From assembly GCA_015059285.1 (NCBI GenBank), contig SVAS01000002.1, positions 128,572 through 192,571 of the forward strand: a stretch of 64,000 nucleotides of DNA, read 5' to 3'. The position numbers were made by a program, and so were the translations under genes. The first letter of the stretch is position 1. Each line of letters begins with the position of its first letter. The notes under the pieces were generated by a model. It did no database searches. It saw only the letters and a program-made list of their open reading frames with translations, and was not told the DNA's origin. Below, piece by piece: positions 9,452 through 62,638 of the stretch. Source of the stretch: Bacillota bacterium (lineage in GTDB: Bacteria; Bacillota_I; Bacilli_A; RF39; UBA660).

Positions 9452-11131
9452 ATGAGTAAAAAAAAGATTGTATGGATTTTTATAATTATTATTAGTGTTG
9501 TGATTTTAGGGGTTGGTGCTTTTTTTGCGACCAATTATATTTTAGAAGAACAAAAAAAGAAGAATGAAAAAACAACTGATGCTTATTTAGGTTCTTTAGA
9601 AAAAACTATTCAAGTTTATGATGAAGAATTTAAAGAAGTAGATAAAATTGTTAGAGGGGAAAAAGTTCTTTTATATGAAAGAGAAGTTAAACCTGAAGAA
9701 AGTGAAAAGGTTTATCGTAAAATAAAATATAAAGATAAAATTTATTTAGTAAATCCAGAAGATTTGGTTAATACTTATGAAGAAACTGTTAAAGAAAAAG
9801 AAGTTTATGTTAGAACTAGTTTAACTACTTATAAAAGTTTTGATAGTGTTGATATTTCTGGATACGTAAAAAAAGGAACTAAATTAGAAGTTACTGGTTT
9901 TGATAAAATAAATGAAGATGGTTCTGTTAATATGTATAAAGTAAAAGAAGGGGATACAGAAGCATATGTATATTCTAAATATGTTGTTGATAATTTAGAA
10001 AGTGCAAATGCTGTTTATAACGAAAATGGCACATATGATTATCATAAAGATAGAGCTTATTCTTTTGAATTATATGGTGGTTATGCTAAGAATTTAGATT
10101 ATTATCCATATGAAAAAGTAGAGTTTGAAAATAATCCTTTAATGGCAGAAACTAAAACATATTATTTAGTAGGGACTTATTATGTATTAGCTGAAATTGA
10201 TAAATATATAGAACTTGCTAAAACTGCTGGAGCTAATGCCTTTGTAGTTGATATAAAAGATGGTGCTTTAGCATATGCTTCTGAAGTTTCAAAAGAGTAT
10301 ACAATGAGTAGTTTTAATTCAGCTATGAATACAGTTGATTTTTATGGTAGTGCTATAAAAAAATTAAAAGATGCAGGTTTTTATGTTATTGGAAGAATTG
10401 TTTTGTTTAATGATTCTAAATATGCAGCTGATAATCCTGCTGACTGTATCAAAACTAGTTATGGAACAAATACTAGTTGGGTAAGTGCTTATAGTAGAAG
10501 AGCTTGGGAATATAATGTAAAACTAGCAAAAGAAGCTATAGAACTATTTGACTTTAATGAAATTCAATTTGATTATGTTAGATTTCCAGAGGCATCTTAT
10601 AATTGGTCTAGATATAATTATGATTTTAATAATAAATATTCTGAAGAAAAAGCCCAAGCAATTCAAACATTTTTATATTATGCTACTGATGAACTTCATA
10701 AACTAGAAACTTATATTTCAGTAGATGTATTTGGGGAATGTTCTGATACATATGTTACGGCTTATGGTCAGTACTGGCCAGCTATTTCTAATATTGTTGA
10801 CGTTATAAGTGCTATGCCTTATACAGATCATTTTGATAGAAATAATAGTGTTTATTGGACAAACCCATATCAAACTGTTAAAAATTGGGCAACATCTGCA
10901 GCAAATAGACAAAAAGAAATTCCAACTCCAGCTAAAGTTAGAACTTGGATTACAGCATATGATACACCATACTGGAATGTAACTACTATTTATGGTGCAG
11001 ATGAGATAGCAGCGCAAATTCAAGGTTTAGTAGATGCCGGTTTAGGCTCAGGCTTTATTACTTGGAATGGTGTTTCAAGTTATTACAAATATCAAGCGAT
11101 TGCTCCTGCTTTTAGTAGAACTTATAATTAG
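9452..11131 (+). CDS. Putative surface glycoside hydrolase (DUF4015/COG1306)
   Basis: A 559-residue exported protein: one membrane segment (about 6-28), an N-terminal region of about 170 residues with SH3-like beta character (KEVYVRTSLTTYKSF, GDTEAYVYSKYVV), then a TIM-barrel-like domain of the DUF4015 family. Family signatures are AGANAFVVDIKDG, YVIGRIVLFND, NEIQFDYVRFPE with acidic residues at the predicted active site, and ISVDVFGE. The family is a presumed glycosidase acting on surface or wall polysaccharide; the substrate is not known. The start at 9452 is preceded only by a weak site (AGTGAT). The next gene begins five bases after the stop. Confidence 0.83.
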   Translation: MSKKKIVWIFIIIISVVILGVGAFFATNYILEEQKKKNEKTTDAYLGSLEKTIQVYDEEFKEVDKIVRGEKVLLYEREVKPEESEKVYRKIKYKDKIYLVNPEDLVNTYEETVKEKEVYVRTSLTTYKSFDSVDISGYVKKGTKLEVTGFDKINEDGSVNMYKVKEGDTEAYVYSKYVVDNLESANAVYNENGTYDYHKDRAYSFELYGGYAKNLDYYPYEKVEFENNPLMAETKTYYLVGTYYVLAEIDKYIELAKTAGANAFVVDIKDGALAYASEVSKEYTMSSFNSAMNTVDFYGSAIKKLKDAGFYVIGRIVLFNDSKYAADNPADCIKTSYGTNTSWVSAYSRRAWEYNVKLAKEAIELFDFNEIQFDYVRFPEASYNWSRYNYDFNNKYSEEKAQAIQTFLYYATDELHKLETYISVDVFGECSDTYVTAYGQYWPAISNIVDVISAMPYTDHFDRNNSVYWTNPYQTVKNWATSAANRQKEIPTPAKVRTWITAYDTPYWNVTTIYGADEIAAQIQGLVDAGLGSGFITWNGVSSYYKYQAIAPAFSRTYN

Positions 11132-11136
11132 ATATT

Positions 11137-11604
11137 ATGGAAAAAATAGTAAAAAAATTAAGAGATTTAAATAAAACGATTGCTACAATGGAATCTTGTA
11201 CAGGTGGGGCAGTTGTAAATGCTATTACTAATATTGAAGGAGCGAGTGAAGTAGTTAAATATAGTGCTGTTACTTATTCTAATGAATTTAAAATAAAAAT
11301 GGGAGTTTCTAAAAATTCAATAGATAAATATAGTGTCTATAGTATTGAAGTTGCAAAAGAAATGAGTAAACAAATTAGTTTATATGCTACTTCTAATTAT
11401 GGATTAGGTATTACAGGTAAATTAAATAGAGTAGATAAAAATAATTTATATGGTTTAGATAATAGAGTATTTATTAGTCTTTATGATAAAGATAATGATG
11501 CATATTATACGAGTACTGTTGATGTTAACAAAAATACTCGAGAAGGAAATAAAAATTTAGTTATAGAAGTTATAAAAAACATATTAATATCGTCTATTAA
11601 ATGA
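11137..11604 (+). CDS. CinA C-terminal-type nicotinamide-nucleotide amidohydrolase (PncC-like)
   Basis: 155 residues corresponding to the CinA C-terminal domain alone, the part that deamidates nicotinamide mononucleotide in NAD salvage. Seen: the motif ATMESCTGG with the catalytic Ser/Cys region near residues 18-26, VVKYSAVTYSNEFKIKMGV and GLGITGKLNR. The N-terminal competence-damage (COG1058) domain is absent, as in stand-alone PncC enzymes. No clear ribosome site precedes the ATG, so it is probably translated by coupling to the DUF4015 gene five bases upstream. Confidence 0.82.
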   Translation: MEKIVKKLRDLNKTIATMESCTGGAVVNAITNIEGASEVVKYSAVTYSNEFKIKMGVSKNSIDKYSVYSIEVAKEMSKQISLYATSNYGLGITGKLNRVDKNNLYGLDNRVFISLYDKDNDAYYTSTVDVNKNTREGNKNLVIEVIKNILISSIK

Positions 11605-20908: not shown

Positions 20909-23512
20909 ATGAACTATAGCAAAGATGGACTAAGTGATTTAGAAGTAGAGAAAAGTCGTAAAAAAAATGGAAGCAATGTAATTACTTCTACTAAGAAGAA
21001 TAGTTTTTTTAGTTTGTTAATAGAGTCTTTAGGGGATCCTATTATTCGTATATTATTAATAGCTTTAGCAATTAAAACTATTTTTTTAATTAAGAATTTT
21101 GATTGGTATGAAACAATTGGGATTGTTATAGCTATATTTTTAGCATCTTTCATTTCTTCAATTTCAGAATATGGAAGTAATAAAGCATTTGAAAAGTTGC
21201 AGGAAGAATCTTCTAAAATTAAAAGTAGAGTAAAAAGAAATGGTAAAATAATAGAAATTAGTTGTGATGATATAGTAGTTGGAGATATTGTAAAACTAGA
21301 AACAGGGGATAAGATACCCGCGGATGGTTATATTGTAGAAGGAGATGTTACAGTTGATGAATCTTCTATTAATGGTGAAGCTAAAGAAAAATATAAGGAA
21401 GCTGTAAATGGACAAGTAACAGAAAAAAATATGGTGTTTAGAGGAACTGTTGTTTATAGCAAAAGTGCTTTGATGTTAGTTACTAAGGTAGGAGATAACA
21501 CATTTTATGGGGATTTAGCTCGTGAAATACAAGAAAAACCTAGTGAAAGTCCTTTAAAATTAAGACTTAGAAAACTAGCTAGCATCATTAGCAAAATAGG
21601 TTATTTTGGGGCTTTTTTAGTAAGTTTTTCTTATCTTTTTTCGGTAGTTGTTATAAATAATAATTTTAACTTAGATTTAATACTAAATACTTTAACTAAC
21701 TTTCCTTTAATGTTTGGTCATATTTTATATGCTTTAACTTTATCAGTAACAATTATTGTAGTAGCTGTTCCAGAAGGTCTTCCGATGATGATAACACTTG
21801 TTTTATCTTCAAATATGAAAAGAATGTTAAAGGATAATGTTTTAGTTAGAAAACTTGTGGGGATAGAAACTGCTGGTAGTTTAAATATTTTATTTACTGA
21901 TAAAACAGGTACACTTACTAAAGGTAAATTAGAAGTAATAGGTTATGTTAATTCAGATTTAAAAAGATATTGTAGTGAAGAAGAAATAAAAAAAACTAAG
22001 CTATATGATTTGGTTTCTAAATCTTTTGCTTGGAATAATGCAAGTAGTTATGATATTGCTTCAAATAAAGCAATTGGTGGTAATATAACTGATAGAGCTT
22101 TAAGAAATTTTATGAAAACTTATAATGAAATCCCTAAAAAAATTCGTGAAATTCCTTTTGATAGTAAACTTAAATATTCTCTTGTTAGTGTAGATAAAAC
22201 AAATTATATAAAAGGCGCTCCTGAAGTAATATTAAAAAACTGTAATAAATGTTATGATACTTTAGGTAAAGTAAAGAGTTTTAATTTTAAAACCAACATT
22301 TATAAATATATAGAAGAAAAAACTAAAGAGGGGATTAGAGTAATAGCTTTGGCAACTTCAAATTATTATAAGGAATTAGATCCTATGAAAAATTTAGTAT
22401 TTTTGGGGCTTGTTTTAATAAAAGATGAAGTTAGAAAAGAAGCTGTTGAAGGAATTAAACTTGTAAGTGATGCTGGCATTCAAACTGTTATGATTACAGG
22501 GGATAATAAAGATACTGCCTTGTCTATTGGTAAAGAAGTAGGATTAATTAAATGTTCTAATGATTTGGTTTTGACAAGTGATGAATTAAAATTAATGAAC
22601 GATGAGAGTGTAAAAAAAATAATTCCTAATTTAAAAATAGTTGCTAGAAGTCTTCCAAATGATAAAAGTAGATTAGTACGTCTTAGTCAAGAATTAGATT
22701 TAGTAGTAGGAATGACAGGTGATGGGGTAAATGATGCTCCGGCTTTGAAAAAAGCTGACGTTGGATTTGCTATGGGAAGTGGTACTGAAGTATCAAAAGA
22801 AGCTAGTGATATTGTTATTTTAGATGACAATTTTTTATCTATTTCCAAAGCTATTTTATTTGGACGAACTATATTTAAAAGTATTAGAAAATTTATTATA
22901 GTCCAACTTACTATTAATTTTTGTGCTATAGCGCTTTCAATAATTGGACCATTTATTGGAATTGATACACCGATTACTGTTATTCAAATGTTATGGTTAA
23001 ATATGGTAATGGATACTTTAGCAGGTCTAGCATTTGCATATGAACCTCCACTTTTAGAATATATGAAAGAAAAACCTAAAAAAAAGGATGAATCAATTAT
23101 TAATAAATACATGTTTGGTCATATTTGTGTTATTGGGTTATATTCTGCTTTAATTTGTATTTTGTTTTTAAAACTACCTTTTGTTCATAATTTTTTTAAT
23201 AATGAAGGAGAGTTTTTAACAGCCTTTTTTGGCTTATTTATTTTTATTGATATTTTCAATAGTTTTTGCGCGAGAACTCATAGGTTAAATCTACTAGCTA
23301 ATATAACAAAAAATAAAGTGTTTTTAGGAATTATGTTGTTTATTGTTATTGTACAAATAATTCTTATTTATTTTGGTGGGACACTATTTAGAACTACAGG
23401 ACTAACATTTATGGAATTTCAGATAATGATTTTAATTGCAGCTTCTATTATACCAATTGATTTTATTAGAAAAATTTATTTAAGGAGTAAAAAAGATTAT
23501 AGTGGTGTATAG
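20909..23512 (+). CDS. Calcium-transporting P-type ATPase (P2 type)
   Basis: 867-residue ion pump. The phosphorylation motif DKTGTLTKG is near residue 331, the actuator-domain motif reads SSINGEAKE where TGES is usual (Ala for Ser/Thr variant), and MTGDGVNDAPALKKADVGFAMG forms the hinge. The fourth membrane segment has VVAVPEGLPM, the calcium-site motif of P2A/P2B ATPases, and the second half has NMVMDTLAGLAFAYEP. The family exports Ca2+ using ATP. A PMCA-like (P2B) assignment fits best. It is transcribed alone with ribosome site AGGAGGG. Confidence 0.87.
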   Translation: MNYSKDGLSDLEVEKSRKKNGSNVITSTKKNSFFSLLIESLGDPIIRILLIALAIKTIFLIKNFDWYETIGIVIAIFLASFISSISEYGSNKAFEKLQEESSKIKSRVKRNGKIIEISCDDIVVGDIVKLETGDKIPADGYIVEGDVTVDESSINGEAKEKYKEAVNGQVTEKNMVFRGTVVYSKSALMLVTKVGDNTFYGDLAREIQEKPSESPLKLRLRKLASIISKIGYFGAFLVSFSYLFSVVVINNNFNLDLILNTLTNFPLMFGHILYALTLSVTIIVVAVPEGLPMMITLVLSSNMKRMLKDNVLVRKLVGIETAGSLNILFTDKTGTLTKGKLEVIGYVNSDLKRYCSEEEIKKTKLYDLVSKSFAWNNASSYDIASNKAIGGNITDRALRNFMKTYNEIPKKIREIPFDSKLKYSLVSVDKTNYIKGAPEVILKNCNKCYDTLGKVKSFNFKTNIYKYIEEKTKEGIRVIALATSNYYKELDPMKNLVFLGLVLIKDEVRKEAVEGIKLVSDAGIQTVMITGDNKDTALSIGKEVGLIKCSNDLVLTSDELKLMNDESVKKIIPNLKIVARSLPNDKSRLVRLSQELDLVVGMTGDGVNDAPALKKADVGFAMGSGTEVSKEASDIVILDDNFLSISKAILFGRTIFKSIRKFIIVQLTINFCAIALSIIGPFIGIDTPITVIQMLWLNMVMDTLAGLAFAYEPPLLEYMKEKPKKKDESIINKYMFGHICVIGLYSALICILFLKLPFVHNFFNNEGEFLTAFFGLFIFIDIFNSFCARTHRLNLLANITKNKVFLGIMLFIVIVQIILIYFGGTLFRTTGLTFMEFQIMILIAASIIPIDFIRKIYLRSKKDYSGV

Positions 23513-56308: not shown

Positions 56309-56426
56309 ATTTTTTGCTCCTTTCATATTCTCTTTACTATTTTTAACCAAAAATAAAATATTATTCATTCATATTTTATTTATTTTATCCATATAATTAA
56401 ATGAATAAAAAAGAGGAGTGAAAAAA

Positions 56427-56765
56427 ATGAAAAAGTATTTATTATGTATTGCTGCTATAATTAGTGTTTTTATGGTTGGATGTGGTAAAAAAGGTGAAAA
56501 TGACATTTTAAAGCAAATAACAAAAAAAATAGAAAATTCAAAATCTTATCATTTAACTGGAACATTAGAAATGATTAATAATGAAAATAGTTATTTGTAT
56601 GATGTTGATGTAGCATATCAAAAAGAAGATAAATTTCGTGTTAGTTTGAAAAATCAAACTAATAGTCATGAACAAATAATTTTAAAAAATGATGAAGGTG
56701 TATATGTCTTAACACACAAAGGTATAACTTTTTTTGAAGATGTGGAGCAAAGCATTTCAATATAA
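56427..56765 (+). pseudogene. N-terminal part of a LolA/GerS-like lipoprotein gene split by the 5.2-kb element
   Basis: 112 codons. A signal peptide with lipobox VFMVGCGKK, then ITKKIENSKSYHLTGTLEMI and VAYQKEDKFRVSLKNQ, the opening strands of LolA-like domains. After ...EGVYVLT (codon 96) the reading frame runs into element DNA and adds 16 unrelated residues before a stop. The continuation VYVLTPSLNKSFKFQSEW is found in frame at 61907-62638, on the other side of the element. Joining the two at the shared GT gives one protein of about 332 residues. In the present arrangement a truncated lipoprotein would be made. Confidence 0.85.
56697..56723 (+). other. attL: left junction of the serine-recombinase element
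   Basis: Host half GGTGTATATG (56697-56706) meets element half at the central GT (56706-56707); the element side has CAAAGGT (56717-56723). TATGTCTTAACAC (56703-56715) recurs with one change at attR (61916-61928). Confidence 0.75.
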
Positions 56766-56767
56766 GG

Positions 56768-56801
56768 GTTTCTATAAATACGTAATATAGAAACTTTTTT
56801 T
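56768..56801 (+). terminator. Terminator just inside the left end of the element
   Basis: GTTTCTATA (56768-56776) pairs with TATAGAAAC (56786-56794), then seven T. It ends transcripts coming from the disrupted lipoprotein gene. Confidence 0.75.
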
Positions 56802-57043
56802 AATTTTTTAAAGTTTGTTTGCAACTTTGCATATTGCACTATATAATAGATGTCTTTTTTTATGCTTGTTAGTATTTATTATGTACAAAAATGGCATATT
56901 TAAAAGTATGTATAAATAATAGTATTTTCAAGTGTATTAGGGTATTTTACAACTTTGCTTTTCTTATACGGGTAAAGGTATTTAGAGCAAGTCAAAAAAG
57001 TCAGTTGTCTTATAAAAATTTAGGACATAAAAAAAGAGTGATT

Positions 57044-57280
57044 TTATTCTTCAATAAAAAATTCACTCATAGGTACATTTAATTTTTTAGAAATAACATA
57101 AATGAACTCTAAACTAAAAGTTTGATAACTATTATTTTCTATATTTGATATAGTACCACTATCATAGCCAATAAGTTCTGCTAGTTGAACTTGAGTAAGT
57201 CCTTTTTCTTTTCTAATTCTTCGAATGTTTTTGCCAACTATAACATAGATGTATTTGTTGTCATTCTTCTTTATCTCCAT
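57044..57280 (-). CDS. XRE-family HTH regulator of the element
   Basis: 78 residues, essentially one Cro/CI-type helix-turn-helix: IRRIRKEKGLTQVQLAELIG, YDSGTISNIENN as the recognition helix, and a C-terminal helix. It is the first element gene from the left end, on the minus strand, and divergent from the small membrane gene. It probably represses element genes. Ribosome site AGGTGATGTT. Confidence 0.82.
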   Translation of the reverse strand: MEIKKNDNKYIYVIVGKNIRRIRKEKGLTQVQLAELIGYDSGTISNIENNSYQTFSLEFIYVISKKLNVPMSEFFIEE

Positions 57281-57385
57281 AACATCACCTAGTTTAATTT
57301 TAATATTACATTTATTAGATGTACTGCATTTAATATATGTAGTTTAGGCTTTTATATGCTAAAATAGAGATGTAGGAGGTGAAAA

Positions 57386-57604
57386 ATGCTAAAGATTATT
57401 TTTCAAGTATTGGCTATTGTAGGAGTTATTATTATATCTATTCTTGCATTTACTTTACCTAGTGACCCATATGAAATAATACCTGCAATGAGTGTGATGA
57501 GTTTTGATAAGCCATTGTGGGCTTGTTATATGTTTGGTGGCTCATTTCTATATTTATTAGTGTTATTAGGTATATATGATATAGTAAATAAAAAAATAGC
57601 ATAA
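57386..57604 (+). CDS. Small two-pass membrane protein of the element
   Basis: 72 residues with two hydrophobic segments (about 3-24 and 46-64) separated by a loop with SDPYEIIPAMSVMSFDKPLW. A strong site (GTAGGAGGTG) precedes the ATG. No family recognised. It lies between two XRE genes pointing the other way. Confidence 0.6.
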   Translation: MLKIIFQVLAIVGVIIISILAFTLPSDPYEIIPAMSVMSFDKPLWACYMFGGSFLYLLVLLGIYDIVNKKIA

Positions 57605-57615
57605 CGGCAATTATA

Positions 57616-57873
57616 CTATTTTGTATTGTCGATGTCATCAAATAGTTGTCTAATATCAATATTTAAAACATCGGCTATTCTTCCTATAACTACTAATGTA
57701 AAATACTTGTTAGGGTTTGCACTTTCTATTTGTGATATGTAGTGCATACTTACTTCTATTTTATCGGCTAGTTCTTGTTGTGTAAGATTAGCCGATTTTC
57801 TATATTTTTTAATGTTTTTTCTAACAATATCATAATAATAGTAGTCATCGTGGAATGAAGTTTTATTCTCCAT
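57616..57873 (-). CDS. Second XRE-family HTH regulator of the element
   Basis: 85 residues with an XRE domain: IKKYRKSANLTQQELADKI and VSMHYISQIESAN as the recognition helix, followed by IADVLNIDIRQLFDD. It differs clearly from the 57044-57280 regulator, so the element carries two distinct repressors. Divergent from the zinc-ribbon membrane gene. Site AGGTGG five bases from the ATG. Confidence 0.82.
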   Translation of the reverse strand: MENKTSFHDDYYYYDIVRKNIKKYRKSANLTQQELADKIEVSMHYISQIESANPNKYFTLVVIGRIADVLNIDIRQLFDDIDNTK

Positions 57874-57965
57874 CTAAACCACCTAATATTATTTTATACA
57901 ACTATCAGTTAGAATTATATGCACCAGTAGTTCGAATTTGTGTTATAATAGTATTAGGAGGTAGT

Positions 57966-58439
57966 ATGAAACAAAATATATGTAAAAATTGTGGTACAAA
58001 ATATTCTAACATTCTATTAAAATGTCCAAAATGTAAATGTCATTTAGTAAAAAACAAAGTATTATTGCCTTTAATAATAGGAGCATTAATTTTCTCGTTA
58101 TTTCTTTTTTTGAATAATAGTGATATATCTAATATAGCGAAAGCACTAATATATTTAACTTGTTCAATATTAGGGGTAGGAATTATTGTTTTACTAATGA
58201 AAGTAATTGATAATTATTATTCTTTTTATTCTACTTTAATTATGGTTTTATTAATAATCATTTCTTCAATATTTTTTATATATTATTTAACTAAACCTAG
58301 TGATTATGAAATAAAAAAAGAAAACGAACAAAATGAAATTGAAAGACAACAACGAGAGGCTTGTAGAAATAAATCTAATACTTATTATAAATGTAGTTGG
58401 AGTTTTATAGAAAATGATTGTGTATGTAAACAAAGATAA
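57966..58439 (+). CDS. Zinc-ribbon membrane protein of the element
   Basis: 157 residues: an N-terminal zinc ribbon (ICKNCGTKY and LKCPKCKCH), three or four membrane segments (about 28-108), and a charged tail with four more Cys (REACRNKSNTYYKCSW, DCVCKQR), possibly outside. Start at 57966 follows TAGGAGG. Function unknown; such proteins are common as accessory genes on integrative elements. A terminator follows. Confidence 0.65.
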   Translation: MKQNICKNCGTKYSNILLKCPKCKCHLVKNKVLLPLIIGALIFSLFLFLNNSDISNIAKALIYLTCSILGVGIIVLLMKVIDNYYSFYSTLIMVLLIIISSIFFIYYLTKPSDYEIKKENEQNEIERQQREACRNKSNTYYKCSWSFIENDCVCKQR

Positions 58440-58464
58440 AAGTACTTTGATAAGTGCTTTTTTT
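58439..58464 (+). terminator. Terminator after the zinc-ribbon membrane gene
   Basis: AAAGTACTT (58439-58447) pairs with AAGTGCTTT (58452-58460, one G-U), then T. Confidence 0.7.
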
Positions 58465-58499
58465 GTTTTGTCTAAACTTTTTTTGTAATTTTACTCAAA

Positions 58500-58700
58500 T
58501 AAGAAAAGTCGTATGTTATATTGTAGGTGCTTAAGCAAGAAATTTAAATATTTATGAACTTTTTTTGTGAAAAGTCCTAAATATGAAAAACATATGTTAT
58601 ATTGAGTGTGCTTGCAAGGAATTTTCAAATTTTTAAAGAAATTTTGCAAAAATTCTACTATATGAAAAACACGTGATATAGTGTTTATGTCGACAAAGAA
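58500..58700. repeat. Three iteron-like ~80-bp repeats upstream of the RepA-like gene
   Basis: The core TATGTTATATTG occurs at 58512 and 58593, with a diverged third copy (GTGATATAGTG, from 58673), giving a period of 80-81 bases. Copies share a preceding GAAAA and, in the first two, a following TGCTT..CAAG..AAT. The tail of a further unit (CTTTTTTTGTAA) precedes copy 1. Copy 2 centres on the palindrome AACATATGTT. Tandem repeats directly before a replication-type ATPase suggest an origin; operators for the element's XRE proteins are the alternative. Confidence 0.65.
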
Positions 58701-58701
58701 A

Positions 58702-58731
58702 AGGACTAGTCCTAAATTAATTTTTAGGAGG
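58702..58731 (+). promoter_or_regulatory. Overlapping hairpins at the ribosome site of the RepA-like gene
   Basis: AGGACTAGTCCT (58702-58713) is self-complementary. CCTAAA (58711-58716) can instead pair with TTTAGG (58723-58728), which runs into the GGAGG ribosome site. Both use CCT at 58711-58713, so they exclude each other and could switch translation. Confidence 0.4.
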
Positions 58732-58736
58732 AATGT

Positions 58737-59771
58737 ATGAAAGAAGAATTAAAAAAAGATTATATTAGATATGCAGATGTAGAAACAAAAGAAATAGAAT
58801 GGTTATGGTTTCCATATCTACCAAAAGGAATGGTGTCTATTGTGCAAGGTGACCCTAAAAGTGGTAAGACCTTTATGTTAATAGATATTATTTCTAGAAT
58901 AACTAGAGGTGATTATATGCCTTTTAGTGAAGAAATGTTTGAGATGGGTAACGTTGTTTTATTAAATAGTGATGACCCTATCGAATATTCATTAAAAAAA
59001 CGTTTAGAACTTCAAAATGCAGATACTGAAAAAGTTTTTACAATAGATGAAAATACAAAAAAATTGTATTTCAAAGACTTATCTCGATTAGAAAAACTAA
59101 TTGAAGAACAAAAACCATTATTAATTGTTATTGACCCTATACAAGCATATATGGGTGATGGTGATAGTAATTCTATGGTACAAGTTAGAAATGCACTAGC
59201 ACCACTAAAAAGAATAGCAGAACAATACAATGTTTCCATTGTTTTAGTACAACATCTAAAAAAAGGCAATGAAACAAAGGCTATATATAAAGGTGCAGGC
59301 TCCATTGATTTTGTGGGGTTTGCAAGGTCAATGATGATGGTCATTAAAGACATTGAAAATGATGAGAGGCTTTTCTTACATAGTACTAGCAATGTAGCAA
59401 AAGAGGGACATTGTTTAAGTTATAGAATAACTAATGATGGTTTAGTATGGTTAGAAGATAAAGGAGAAGTTAATGTAAATGAGATGGCTAATCAAGATAG
59501 TAATACTAAATTTGAAAATGCCAAGAATTTTATATTAGGGTGTATTGCAAGTAAAGGCAATATTTCTGCAACTGAACTTCAACAATTATGTAATATTGGT
59601 GGCTTTAGTGAACGTACCTTTAATGGTGCTAGAAGTTACCTAAACAAAAATAATAAAATTCATTCAATTAAAAAGAATGGCAGAACATATTGGAGTTTAA
59701 GTAGTCCGCTAGATGACAATGTGCAAAGTTGCAATGTAGAAAGTGAGGTGTTAGAAGATGACAAAATATAA
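58737..59771 (+). CDS. RepA-like AAA ATPase (RecA-fold helicase-type) of the element
   Basis: 344 residues. A RecA-like AAA domain with Walker A GDPKSGKT (38-45), SDDP in the next strand, Walker B LLIVIDPIQAYMG and LVQHLKKG resembles the RepA hexameric helicase/AAA_25 group found on plasmids and integrative elements. The C-terminal ~90 residues form a winged-helix-like region (NISATELQQLCNIGGFSERTF). It probably unwinds or helps start replication of the excised element. Ribosome site TAGGAGG. It overlaps the next gene by 14 bases, and the iteron-like repeats lie just upstream. Confidence 0.8.
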   Translation: MKEELKKDYIRYADVETKEIEWLWFPYLPKGMVSIVQGDPKSGKTFMLIDIISRITRGDYMPFSEEMFEMGNVVLLNSDDPIEYSLKKRLELQNADTEKVFTIDENTKKLYFKDLSRLEKLIEEQKPLLIVIDPIQAYMGDGDSNSMVQVRNALAPLKRIAEQYNVSIVLVQHLKKGNETKAIYKGAGSIDFVGFARSMMMVIKDIENDERLFLHSTSNVAKEGHCLSYRITNDGLVWLEDKGEVNVNEMANQDSNTKFENAKNFILGCIASKGNISATELQQLCNIGGFSERTFNGARSYLNKNNKIHSIKKNGRTYWSLSSPLDDNVQSCNVESEVLEDDKI

Positions 59772-60102
59772 TGAGAATATAAGTAGCCAATACCCTATAA
59801 TAACTCTAATAAGAATGTTAACAATATTTGATTATAGAAGTGGTTTTATAAGAAATTGGACAGGTGACAAAGAAAAACTAACTATTCATCAAATAGGGCA
59901 TATTATGGGGTTGAATGGTAGAGAGATGAACCAAGTTATTGATGTGTTGGAGCCAATGGGTTTGATTAGTGAATATAAAACCAAGAAGAAAAGATATTTA
60001 ATAGTTGAAGACATAATTATTAATGCAATTGTAGAGGGTAAAGAAATTAAAATGGTGTTATTAAATATCGACAAAAGTATTAATCAAGAATTCAATATGT
60101 AA
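59758..60102 (+). CDS. Winged-helix DNA-binding protein of the element
   Basis: 114 residues, mostly helical, with a winged-helix pattern: LTIHQIGHIMGLNGREMNQVI, IDVLEPMGLISEYKTKKKRYLIVED. It overlaps the RepA-like gene, so the two are translated together and may act together, for instance with this protein recognising the repeats. No exact family is recognised. Confidence 0.65.
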   Translation: MTKYNENISSQYPIITLIRMLTIFDYRSGFIRNWTGDKEKLTIHQIGHIMGLNGREMNQVIDVLEPMGLISEYKTKKKRYLIVEDIIINAIVEGKEIKMVLLNIDKSINQEFNM

Positions 60103-60130
60103 TTCATATGTTTTAGTGGGTGACTGTTAT

Positions 60131-60235
60131 ATGAAAGTGACAAGTTATTTTGATGAAAAGGGCAAATCATTTCAAGAAATTATAGAACAATTTCTAGTCC
60201 TTTATTACAATGAAACCCTAGTAAAACAAGGCTAA
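60131..60235 (+). CDS. 34-residue conserved-type small protein before the recombinase
   Basis: Encodes MKVTSYFDEKGKSFQEIIEQ followed by 14 more residues. GGGTGA lies upstream at suitable spacing. Short proteins of this general type occur in front of the recombinase in Firmicute integrative elements, so I take it as a real gene; its function is unknown. Confidence 0.55.
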   Translation: MKVTSYFDEKGKSFQEIIEQFLVLYYNETLVKQG

Positions 60236-60295
60236 AAATGGTATAATATAAGTGTATTGAAATGGTTTTGCTACCACTAAAAAAGGAGGTAATTT

Positions 60296-61885
60296 ATGGT
60301 AGGTAGTGAAACATACAAAGTAGGTATTTATTTAAGATTATCTCGTGAAGATGAATTAAAAGGTGAAAGTGGTAGTATTTCTAATCAAAGGGACATCATA
60401 CACAAATATATAAGAGATAACAACTTATTATATATAGATGAGTATGTAGATGATGGTGTTAGTGGCACTCAATTTGATAGAGTTGGTTGGAATAAACTAA
60501 TTGAAGATATTGAGGCTAAACGTATTAATATGGTAATTACTAAAGACTTATCAAGGTTTGGAAGAAACGAGGGACAACAATTAAGATATTTAGATTATTT
60601 CTATGAAAATGGAATAAGATATGTTGCCATACTTGATAATGTTGATACATTTGATGAGTATAATACATCTAATGAAATGATACCTATACAATGTTTCTTT
60701 AATGAAAAGCACGTAAGAGATACATCTAAAAAGATGAAAGCAAGTGTATATAATAAAAGAAGTCAAGGTAATTTCCTAGGCAAAACTGCTCCATTTGGTT
60801 ATAAGAAAGACCCTAATAATAAATATAAGTTAATTATTGATGAAGAGGCTTCACAAGTTGTTAAAAGAATATTTGATTTATTTGTTAGTGGCAAAGGCAT
60901 TTGTGAAATATCTAGAATTCTAACTGATGAAAAAGTCCCTATACCTAGTGAGTATAAAGGACTTAACGTTGGTATGAAGTCAACGGCTTATGGTATATGG
61001 AATAATAGAACAATAAGTGATATGTTGACTTTACCTACATATGTTGGTGATTTAACACAAGGTAGGTCAAAGAAACCTAGTTATAAATCAAAAAGAAGAA
61101 TAAGACCTAAAAAAGAAGAATGGATAATTTGTGAGGGCAAATGTCCTGCCATTATTGATAAAGAAACATTTAATCTAGCACAAGACATATATAATAGGAA
61201 TAAAAATCAAGGTAAGAACACACAAGATATATTATTAAAAGGGTTTGTATATTGTAAAGAGTGTGGGCATACAATAGGTTTTAGACTTCAAAAAGTTAAT
61301 ACTAAAAAGAAAGGTGAAGTCACAAGATGTTATGGTAATTGTAATTATTGGGCTAAACATAAAAAATATGGTGTATGTACTCCACACAATACTAAATACT
61401 ATGAATTAGAAGATTTAGTTTTAAGTGAAATAAAGAAAATGTGTAGAAAGTATTTAAAGGCTAATGATTTAAAGAATGTACTAGCCAATAGTGATAAAAC
61501 TAAAAAGATATTAAACGAATTAGAAATAAGATTAAAAAAGTTAGTGGCAGAGGTTGAATTTAGTAGTAAGAAAAAAGAAGACTTATACAATGATAAGTTA
61601 GAGGGCATTATTGATTTAGAAATGTATAAAAGAATGTGTAATAGAATAACGGAAGAAACTCTCACTAAACAAAACGAGATAGCAGAAATAAAAACTAAAA
61701 TATATAATATAAAGAATAATATAACTGATAATAACAAGAAATATGATAGTGTTATAAAAGAATATTTATCTATGAAAAAGCCTAGTGTACAACTATTATC
61801 TAGTATTATAGATAAGATAGTCATAGATGAAAATAAAAATGTAGATATATATTATAAGTTTAAACCATTTGAAAATGGTTATTAA
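60296..61885 (+). CDS. Large serine recombinase (integrase/excisionase of the element)
   Basis: 529 residues. The N-terminal resolvase domain has YLRLSREDE with nucleophile Ser16, VDDGVSGTQFDR and TKDLSRFGRN. The recombinase domain follows (TAPFGYKKDP, GKGICEISRIL), then a zinc-ribbon region (YCKECGH, RCYGNCNYW) and a coiled coil (about 400-490). It cuts and rejoins DNA at a central dinucleotide, here GT by att comparison. It resembles the TnpX/TndX group. Ribosome site AAAGGAGGT; it ends 22 bases before the host gene's second part, typical for an integrase beside its att site. Confidence 0.93.
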   Translation: MVGSETYKVGIYLRLSREDELKGESGSISNQRDIIHKYIRDNNLLYIDEYVDDGVSGTQFDRVGWNKLIEDIEAKRINMVITKDLSRFGRNEGQQLRYLDYFYENGIRYVAILDNVDTFDEYNTSNEMIPIQCFFNEKHVRDTSKKMKASVYNKRSQGNFLGKTAPFGYKKDPNNKYKLIIDEEASQVVKRIFDLFVSGKGICEISRILTDEKVPIPSEYKGLNVGMKSTAYGIWNNRTISDMLTLPTYVGDLTQGRSKKPSYKSKRRIRPKKEEWIICEGKCPAIIDKETFNLAQDIYNRNKNQGKNTQDILLKGFVYCKECGHTIGFRLQKVNTKKKGEVTRCYGNCNYWAKHKKYGVCTPHNTKYYELEDLVLSEIKKMCRKYLKANDLKNVLANSDKTKKILNELEIRLKKLVAEVEFSSKKKEDLYNDKLEGIIDLEMYKRMCNRITEETLTKQNEIAEIKTKIYNIKNNITDNNKKYDSVIKEYLSMKKPSVQLLSSIIDKIVIDENKNVDIYYKFKPFENGY

Positions 61886-61902
61886 AAATAGAAAAAAATT
61901 AA

Positions 61903-61929
61903 ACCTTTGATAGTTTATGTTTTAACACC
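61903..61929 (+). other. attR: right junction of the serine-recombinase element
   Basis: Element arm ACCTTTG (61903-61909), central GT (61919-61920) and host half TTTAACACC (61921-61929). ACCTTTG is the complement of CAAAGGT at attL, as expected for the two arms of attP. Host halves GGTGT and ACACC likewise form an inverted repeat. Confidence 0.75.
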
Positions 61930-62638
61930 GTCATTAAATAAAAGTTTTAAATTTCAAAGTGAATGGCCATATAATAATTCACAGAGTTATTTATTACAAT
62001 CTATATTAAAAGATATAACAGATGATGATGAAAGAAAATTTGAAGAAACTAATGATGGTTATATTTATACAACAAACGTTAATTATTCTAATAATCCTGA
62101 TTTAATATCACAAGAAATATTTTTCGACAAAAATTTAAATATTAAAAAAGTAGAAGTAATGGATAAAAATGAACAAACACAAATTAAAATGGAATTTAAT
62201 GACATTGATTTAAAAGCAACTTATGCTGATAATTATTTTGATTTAAAAGAAAATGTTAATGTATCAAGCGCTGAAGAAACAGAAACACCTGTTAGTAAAA
62301 TAGAAGATATTATTTATCCTATGTATATTCCCAAAAACACTTCGTTAACTAGTCAAGATACAGTTTCTACAACTAATGGGGAGAGAGTTATTTTAACTTT
62401 TAGTGGTGACAAACCATTTATGTTAGTACAAGAAACAATTGCAAAAACGGATGATATAGTAACTATCCCAGTAGATGGAGAACCTATTTTATTTGCAGAT
62501 ACAATTGGCGCTAAAACCGATGGTTCTATAACTTGGTTGAGTAATGGTTTAGAATATTATTTAGTGTCAGATATTTTAACTGAAACAGAGTTAGTTAGTG
62601 TTGCAAAGTCAATAAGTGCTTTACCTGTAGTTAAATAA
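61907..62638 (+). pseudogene. C-terminal part of the split lipoprotein gene (LolA/DUF4367-like)
   Basis: About 240 codons open from the junction. After VYVLT it continues PSLNKSFKFQSEWPYNNSQ, which completes the LolA-like domain begun at 56427, then a second domain like DUF4367: YPMYIPKNTSLTSQ, RVILTFSGDKPFMLVQETI, ITWLSNGLEYYLVSD and a closing helix. There is no ribosome site or signal peptide at this end, so it is silent unless the element leaves. The region is free of stops or frameshifts, indicating recent or reversible interruption. Confidence 0.85.

Follow-up and report, generated by a model that had tools for sequence, protein, structure and literature searches.

The window analysed here, a 64,000-nucleotide stretch of contig SVAS01000002.1 (assembly GCA_015059285.1) from a Bacillota bacterium of the RF39 lineage, carries a lipoprotein gene that is split by an inserted element encoding a large serine recombinase (Table 1). 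The interrupted gene begins with an ATG at 56427, and joining of 56427-56707 to 61921-62638, both parts being in phase, yields a frame of 332 codons whose product reads MKKYLL...EGVYV/LTPSLNKSF...PVVK and aligns end to end with intact single genes of other genera (63% to ~42% identity). The crossover dinucleotide GT lies at 56706-56707 in the left attachment site (attL) and at 61919-61920 in the right one (attR), an offset which corresponds to an element of 5213 bp. The original prediction, made from the letters of the window, had proposed one gene in two undecayed halves, an element of this length with a shared GT, and an insertion by a serine recombinase that exact excision could undo. Positions and phase were recovered as proposed, comparison of the attachment sites gave the same length and crossover, the sites are coherent and the recombinase intact, and no decay was seen in the halves read (~40 interrupted genes). 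It had placed the end of the left half at 56715; the unexcised left frame continues to a stop at 56763-56765 within the element (112 residues from the ATG). Since the left frame stops there and the 3' part, which begins in DNA of the element's attachment site (attP), has no clear start or ribosome-binding site, the gene cannot give its product while the element is in place.

The crossover in all junctions read falls on the same GT, inside codon V94. The site in intact genes (attB) is near-palindromic, GGTGTTTAT-GT-TTTAACACC, and covers codons G91-P97; the reconstructed attP, ACTTTTGTGTGTTATA-GT-TATAACACACAAAAGT, is near-palindromic as well. In relatives, attL consists of the left part of attB followed by ...TATAACACACAAAAGTACACAACTTT, and attR of ...AAAACTTTTGTGTGTTATA, GT and the right part of attB; the attP halves of the window are AAACCTTTGATAGTTTAT and CTTAACACACAAAGGTATAAC. 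The two junctions are thus swapped halves of a short attB and a short attP around a common dinucleotide, and the recombinase carries catalytic, Recombinase and Zn-ribbon domains (Pfam) as well as a PHROG integrase match of 2.2e-93. Such a pattern is characteristic of large serine integrases, the crossover dinucleotide here being GT, and the insertion is almost certainly site-specific and precisely reversible.

The arrangement recurs widely. Following a first search of 60 relatives, a second covered 386 genomes of the same family, 326 of which have the lipoprotein gene, mostly as a single frame of ~330-345 residues. Among these 326, ~280 genes are uninterrupted, which answers the original prediction's call to look for the intact gene in relatives, versus ~48 interrupted at the same codon (window's genome included; ~36 genera). 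Relative to the intact protein, 5' pieces stop near residue 96-101 and 3' pieces begin at 91-92. Both halves were found in ~40 of the interrupted genomes, the remaining ones showing one half that ends at the junction, and the insert lies on a single contig in 14 genomes, with sizes from ~3.4 kb (G071) to 18.8 kb (G089). As ~48 genomes are cut at the same codon with matching attB, attL and attR, the split is not due to chance.

Recombinases of the main lineage at this site are ~65-98% identical; the window's enzyme forms a second lineage with those of G182 and G102 (72-79%), and further lineages occur in G390 and G396. Of the recombinases, 17 share at least 69% identity with P0002 of the main lineage, and all of these come from interrupted genomes, with none elsewhere. 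Because nearly identical recombinases (95-98%) sit in different genera, the elements must move horizontally. Furthermore, sister species carry different recombinase lineages, empty sites occur in sister species, attP arms are identical in elements from different genera, and element ends are more similar between species than the host gene is. Cargo at this site in other genomes is very different, including ABC transporter, metabolic and surface-protein genes (judged from open reading frames, ORFs). No PHROG matches to phage structural or lysis genes were found among the ORFs of the window's element, which is therefore not classed as a prophage, and phage and plasmid collections held no relative of the recombinase above ~35% identity among the matches listed. 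Upstream of the ATPase gene, positions 58516-58685 contain repeated GTGCTTAAGCAAG/GTGCTTGCAAGG-type motifs and ATATGAAAAACA..GTTATATTG repeats, perhaps an origin or operator; TTGCTTAAGCAA is also found again in sister elements, in front of their small ORF. Most main-lineage elements (L059, L068, L069, L070, L072, L073) have a Bro/DinD-like gene between recombinase and attR, and broken remains of such a gene lie at G000:C1:23500-23932 in the window's genome.

Table 1. Features of the split lipoprotein locus and of related loci; positions are those of the window unless a genome or locus label is given.
Feature	Position	Strand	Basis
Sigma-E-like promoter of lipoprotein gene, ATATTTTATTTATTTTATCCATATAAT	56371..56397	+	Conserved motif in orthologue upstream regions
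5' part of GerS/RseB-like lipoprotein gene, codons 1-94 (partial), to crossover GT	56427..56707	+	tblastn; alignment to intact orthologues
attL: attB left half GGTGTATAT-GT and attP right half CTTAACACACAAAGGTATAAC	56690..56735	+	Alignment with attB and attL of other genomes
Inserted element, 5213 bp	56708..61920	.	Crossover placed by attB/attL/attR comparison
HTH_3 Cro/CI-type regulator	57044..57280	-	Pfam HTH_3 1.6e-14
Second HTH_3 Cro/CI-type regulator	57616..57873	-	Pfam HTH_3 1.1e-10
Putative membrane protein with Zn-ribbon-like N-terminus (cargo)	57966..58439	+	ORF; nothing above Pfam cut-off
AAA_25 RepA/DnaB-like ATPase	58737..59771	+	Pfam AAA_25 1.5e-27; PHROG primase/helicase matches
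Small ORF adjoining ATPase, possibly winged-helix	59758..60102	+	ORF only; no family match
34-residue protein, candidate recombination directionality factor	60131..60235	+	Conserved position upstream of recombinase
Large serine recombinase, 529 residues, intact	60296..61885	+	Pfam Resolvase 1.3e-20, Recombinase 1.1e-23, Zn-ribbon 1.3e-6
attR: attP left half AAACCTTTGATAGTTTAT-GT and attB right half TTTAACACCGTC	61890..61940	+	Alignment with other genomes
3' part of lipoprotein gene, open to its own stop	61921..62638	+	Alignment to intact orthologues
Halves of Amidase_3-LysM gene, outside the window	G000:C1:20277-20600 and 10658-11593	-	L129, L128
Collagen-like (BclA-type) host genes, similar small ORF before recombinase	L191 (G252), L192 (G070), L193 (G123), L194 (G247), L196 (G404)		
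Serine recombinase adjoining SpoVD-like C-terminal PASTA fragment	L201 (G282:C49)		
Related recombinases cutting NMT1/SsuA-like ABC substrate-binding gene	L198 (G215), L199 (G269)		

The interrupted gene encodes a protein with an invariant lipobox cysteine (Cys20 in the orthologue alignment), and a structure model from intact orthologues (predicted local distance difference test score, pLDDT, 85) has RseB/MucB and LolA as its top structural matches. Lipobox and fold together identify a LolA/RseB-fold lipoprotein, bearing out the LolA-like half of the original description; its DUF4367-like half was not recovered by Pfam. In a profile search of the PDB, the sole significant match was GerS of Clostridioides difficile in the GerS-CwlD complex (5.7e-9), and the 5' part matched the NCBIfam GerS model at 7.1e-8, far under its cut-off. 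The score for this family (NF041286), 45 bits against a curated cut-off of 175, is likewise well short of the equivalog threshold, and the protein is therefore a relative of GerS and not GerS itself. The suggested GerS-type spore lipoprotein thus stands as to GerS-likeness and a host with sporulation genes, and falls short at the family cut-off.

Sporulation is predicted for RF39 (PMC10868615), and the host genome carries genes for Spo0A, SpoIVA, sigE-like and sigK-like factors and a CwlD-like amidase, the last three scoring slightly under curated cut-offs. Candidatus Pelethosoma and ‘Tenericutes/Bacilli’ bins of ~1-1.5 Mb are among the relatives, by which the lineage is probably RF39-like. 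Across other families of the class (23 genomes), Spo0A was present in 8/8 with the lipoprotein gene and 0/15 without it, to be read as a strong pattern and not as a probability, since genomes that are related do not count as independent. Within the family, many genomes without the gene show Spo0A missing, short or weakly matching. The upstream regions of orthologues share a conserved box, ATATTT-N14-CATATAAT, and the strict promoter motif was found in 30/65 of them versus 1/37 control ORFs and 2% of shuffles. The same promoter type precedes spoIVA in the window's genome and in relatives, and with a matrix trained on the lipoprotein promoters, 7/9 regions upstream of spoIVA score over the 95th percentile of the controls. 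As the Spo0A pattern, the promoter and its spoIVA-like match concur, the lipoprotein gene is very probably a sporulation gene of sigma-E type. The element therefore lies inside the coding region of a gene for which a sporulation role is indirectly indicated, with both halves undecayed and in phase, as expected of a gene-intervening element.

Related elements have entered other genes. Sister recombinases (~45-50% identical) lie inside collagen-like genes in 5 or 6 genomes, one of the interrupted genes having a sub-threshold match to the BclA C-terminal domain, and the SpoVD-like fragment in G282 is apparently an interrupted penicillin-binding-protein gene. The window's genome contains a second interrupted gene, for an Amidase_3-LysM protein (...SNHINAGGG / GGDGAEVIYALRNN...), cut at SNHINAGGG/GGDGAEV by ~8.7 kb. 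This insert encodes a further serine recombinase along with a DUF262-like protein and a probable methyltransferase; nearby are genes for a CwlD-like protein (22734-23408) and a SleB-like hydrolase (10156-10620), and the split gene is perhaps a spore amidase. Apart from these, L195 (G169:C102) has a serine recombinase with a complete acetyltransferase gene on either side, the two copies being similar.

Evidence on excision itself comes from bin G209, in which one contig carries an intact attB and another an attR; from GT onward, ~173 bases agree but for 1-2 differences. The species is thus present in both empty and occupied states in one sample. The pair could reflect a precise exchange in nature, with an event in sporulating cells and a mixture of two strains both fitting. 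Such an empty site and an excised circle were the evidence that the original prediction had proposed to seek; empty and occupied sites were found together, and no circle was. A second presumed pair, in G145, was rejected, since its contigs differ at ~8 of 50 bases and probably do not belong to one species. Likewise, contig breaks near junctions were dropped as a sign of excision; they lie inside element ends and fit elements common to several strains or species. For the 3' half, the ratio of non-synonymous to synonymous substitution rates (dN/dS) is mostly 0.04-0.22 in pairs with a split member versus 0.025-0.12 in intact pairs, values which cannot separate recent insertion from regular restoration because synonymous sites are near saturation. 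Undecayed halves and intact-like dN/dS are equally compatible with a recent insertion and with regular excision. The occupied G171 and the empty G002 differ little (dN 0, dS 0.115), so that at least one insertion event is recent.

In nearly all elements of this locus, a homologous ORF of 34-51 residues with the motif ...F.E.G.(T/S)(F/L)(Q/N)E(I/L)I... lies directly upstream of the recombinase. It matches no Pfam or NCBIfam family and is the best candidate for a recombination directionality factor. With the lipoprotein-promoter matrix, 9/18 regions upstream of the small ORF exceed the control 95th percentile, the site lying 22-24 nt ahead of the start codon; the nine elements share ancestry and so are not independent. 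A sigma-E promoter at this ORF is suggestive. In L192, L193, L198 and L199, and partly in L191 and L194, half-sites of the form CTTATG-TCGG-CATAAG-...-CTTATG extend over its ribosome-binding site and start codon, a candidate operator or switching RNA hairpin. Immediately before the recombinase, a sigma-E promoter was in general not found.

Taken together, the best explanation, which is held to be probable without being assured, is a mobile, non-prophage element of the skin/gin type in a sporulation lipoprotein gene, excised in the mother cell. In this view, the cargo element has integrated through its large serine recombinase at the conserved attB of a GerS/LolA/RseB-type gene, which stays split and silent as long as the element is in place. 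At sporulation, the recombinase and a small directionality factor (best candidate, the 34-residue ORF) would most likely excise the element in the mother cell, rejoining codon V94 exactly, so that the lipoprotein could be made when its sigma-E-type promoter fires, and the forespore would keep the element. Several observations weigh against this sequence of events, and its programmed, mother-cell character is favoured only moderately. An excised circle was not detected, the attP consensus (up to 3 mismatches) giving 0 in 386 family genomes and the exact site 0 in viral contigs, with a search pattern drawn from the main lineage that leaves the window's diverged attP outside it. Some relatives with full Spo0A are without the lipoprotein gene, which is thus not indispensable for all. 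The window's own small-ORF box is weak (score 2.8, with the control 95th percentile at 7.7), and the sigma-E-like box at the small ORF is near an inverted repeat located at the start codon. A related CATA box, within that repeat, also occurs in some sister elements in other genes, and the sigma-E promoter at the small ORF was downgraded because these control elements have it. The recombinase need not be sporulation-specific, since an extended -10 box, TGGTATAAT, precedes it. Finally, the ABC substrate-binding gene entered by sister elements is probably vegetative.

The same observations bear on a rather unlikely alternative, in which the site is an insertion hotspot only: a conserved attB in a gene dispensable for growth, inactivated by recent insertions, with excision rare and unrelated to sporulation. 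The near-identical recombinases and attP arms across genera, the differing lineages in sister species, the missing circle, the G171/G002 pair and the ABC-transporter target would all suit it, but ~40 interrupted genes without visible decay and with dN/dS close to intact-gene values, sister elements that often lie in genes of BclA-like or SpoVD-like type, and the sigma-E-like boxes at candidate directionality factors argue against it. A domesticated, vertically inherited controlling element, as proposed for skin, would account for the same site in many genera and is nevertheless very unlikely: recombinase lineages, cargo and sizes vary at the site, sister species have empty sites, element ends are more alike than the host gene, and discordance of element and host trees is already indicated. 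More improbable still is a function of the halves as two separate short proteins; although both frames are open, the junction interrupts the beta-sheet domain of the LolA-like fold, the 3' half starts within attP DNA and has no clear ribosome-binding site, and ~280 relatives have a single gene. An assembly artefact joining unrelated DNA deserves mention as most data are metagenome bins, and its likelihood is negligible; it is refuted by exact att sites and the same structure in ~48 genomes, in 14 of which a single contig holds the insert.

Beyond programmed excision at this locus, it is conceivable, if somewhat doubtful, that a clade of compact, horizontally moving cargo islands has specialised on spore genes as harmless landing sites, among them those for the GerS-like lipoprotein, BclA-like collagen proteins, a SpoVD-like penicillin-binding protein and perhaps a spore amidase, with a sigma-E-responsive directionality factor and mother-cell-only excision; sporulation in this lineage would then routinely reassemble one or more split genes. 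Developmental gene reassembly is so far known mostly from single Bacillus or Clostridium strains and mostly from prophages. The present arrangement is, to judge from the sequences, recurrent and still mobile over dozens of genera in a gut lineage that is uncultured, has small genomes and is predicted to sporulate, and it adds natural empty/occupied pairs and a new target gene. It further suggests a reason, open to testing, for which mobile elements might choose spore genes (insertion would cost growth nothing and release would occur in a cell that is dying anyway), and the ~48 matched att sets provide a practical resource for work on serine integrases.

Among known systems, the staphylococcal cassette chromosome (SCC) is inserted at the 3' end of rlmH, which stays functional. 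The element resembles SCC in a distant Ccr similarity of its recombinase and in a compact cargo island with a replication-type ATPase, and differs in cutting mid-gene and in a target other than rlmH; at 96 bits against a cut-off of 900 for NCBIfam CcrA/B/C, the recombinase scores far too low for a Ccr. The lipoprotein shares with C. difficile GerS a LolA-like fold, a lipobox, the best PDB sequence match and a CwlD-like amidase in the same genome, and has an extra C-terminal RseB-like domain that GerS lacks; GerS proper is described as restricted to Peptostreptococcaceae (PMC8496864).

The kind of system is known from skin, gin, yin and SP-beta; what is new, to judge by the literature searched, is the target gene, the host lineage, the recurrence and the small, non-prophage form. 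In C. difficile skin, as here, a large serine recombinase splits a sporulation gene (there the mother-cell sigK) that exact rejoining restores (PMC5025042). The skin recombinase, CD1231, is constitutively expressed from a sigma-A promoter, and CD1234, of 72 residues and dependent on sigma-E/SpoIIID, its start site lying 14 nt upstream of the ORF, confines excision to the mother cell (PMC5025042); the layout here resembles this in its small candidate directionality protein and a recombinase probably transcribed from a sigma-A-type promoter. Unlike skin, the present element targets a GerS/RseB-like lipoprotein gene, is very small (5.2 kb) without recognised phage genes, and has a small ORF that matches no described family; its excision is a proposed one. 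The gin element in gerE of Bacillus cereus likewise intervenes in a sporulation gene, is not a prophage and varies in its cargo, but has three recombinases, 28.6 kb and a 9-bp shared core (PMC5595907), compared with one recombinase, a GT core and 3.4-18.8 kb here. SP-beta in spsM, vfbin in spoVFB and yin in yabG are also serine-recombinase elements in sporulation genes; they are prophages or prophage-like and known from one or few species (PMC4191935, PMC10747680), whereas elements of the kind described here occupy one target gene across dozens of genera of an uncultured lineage.

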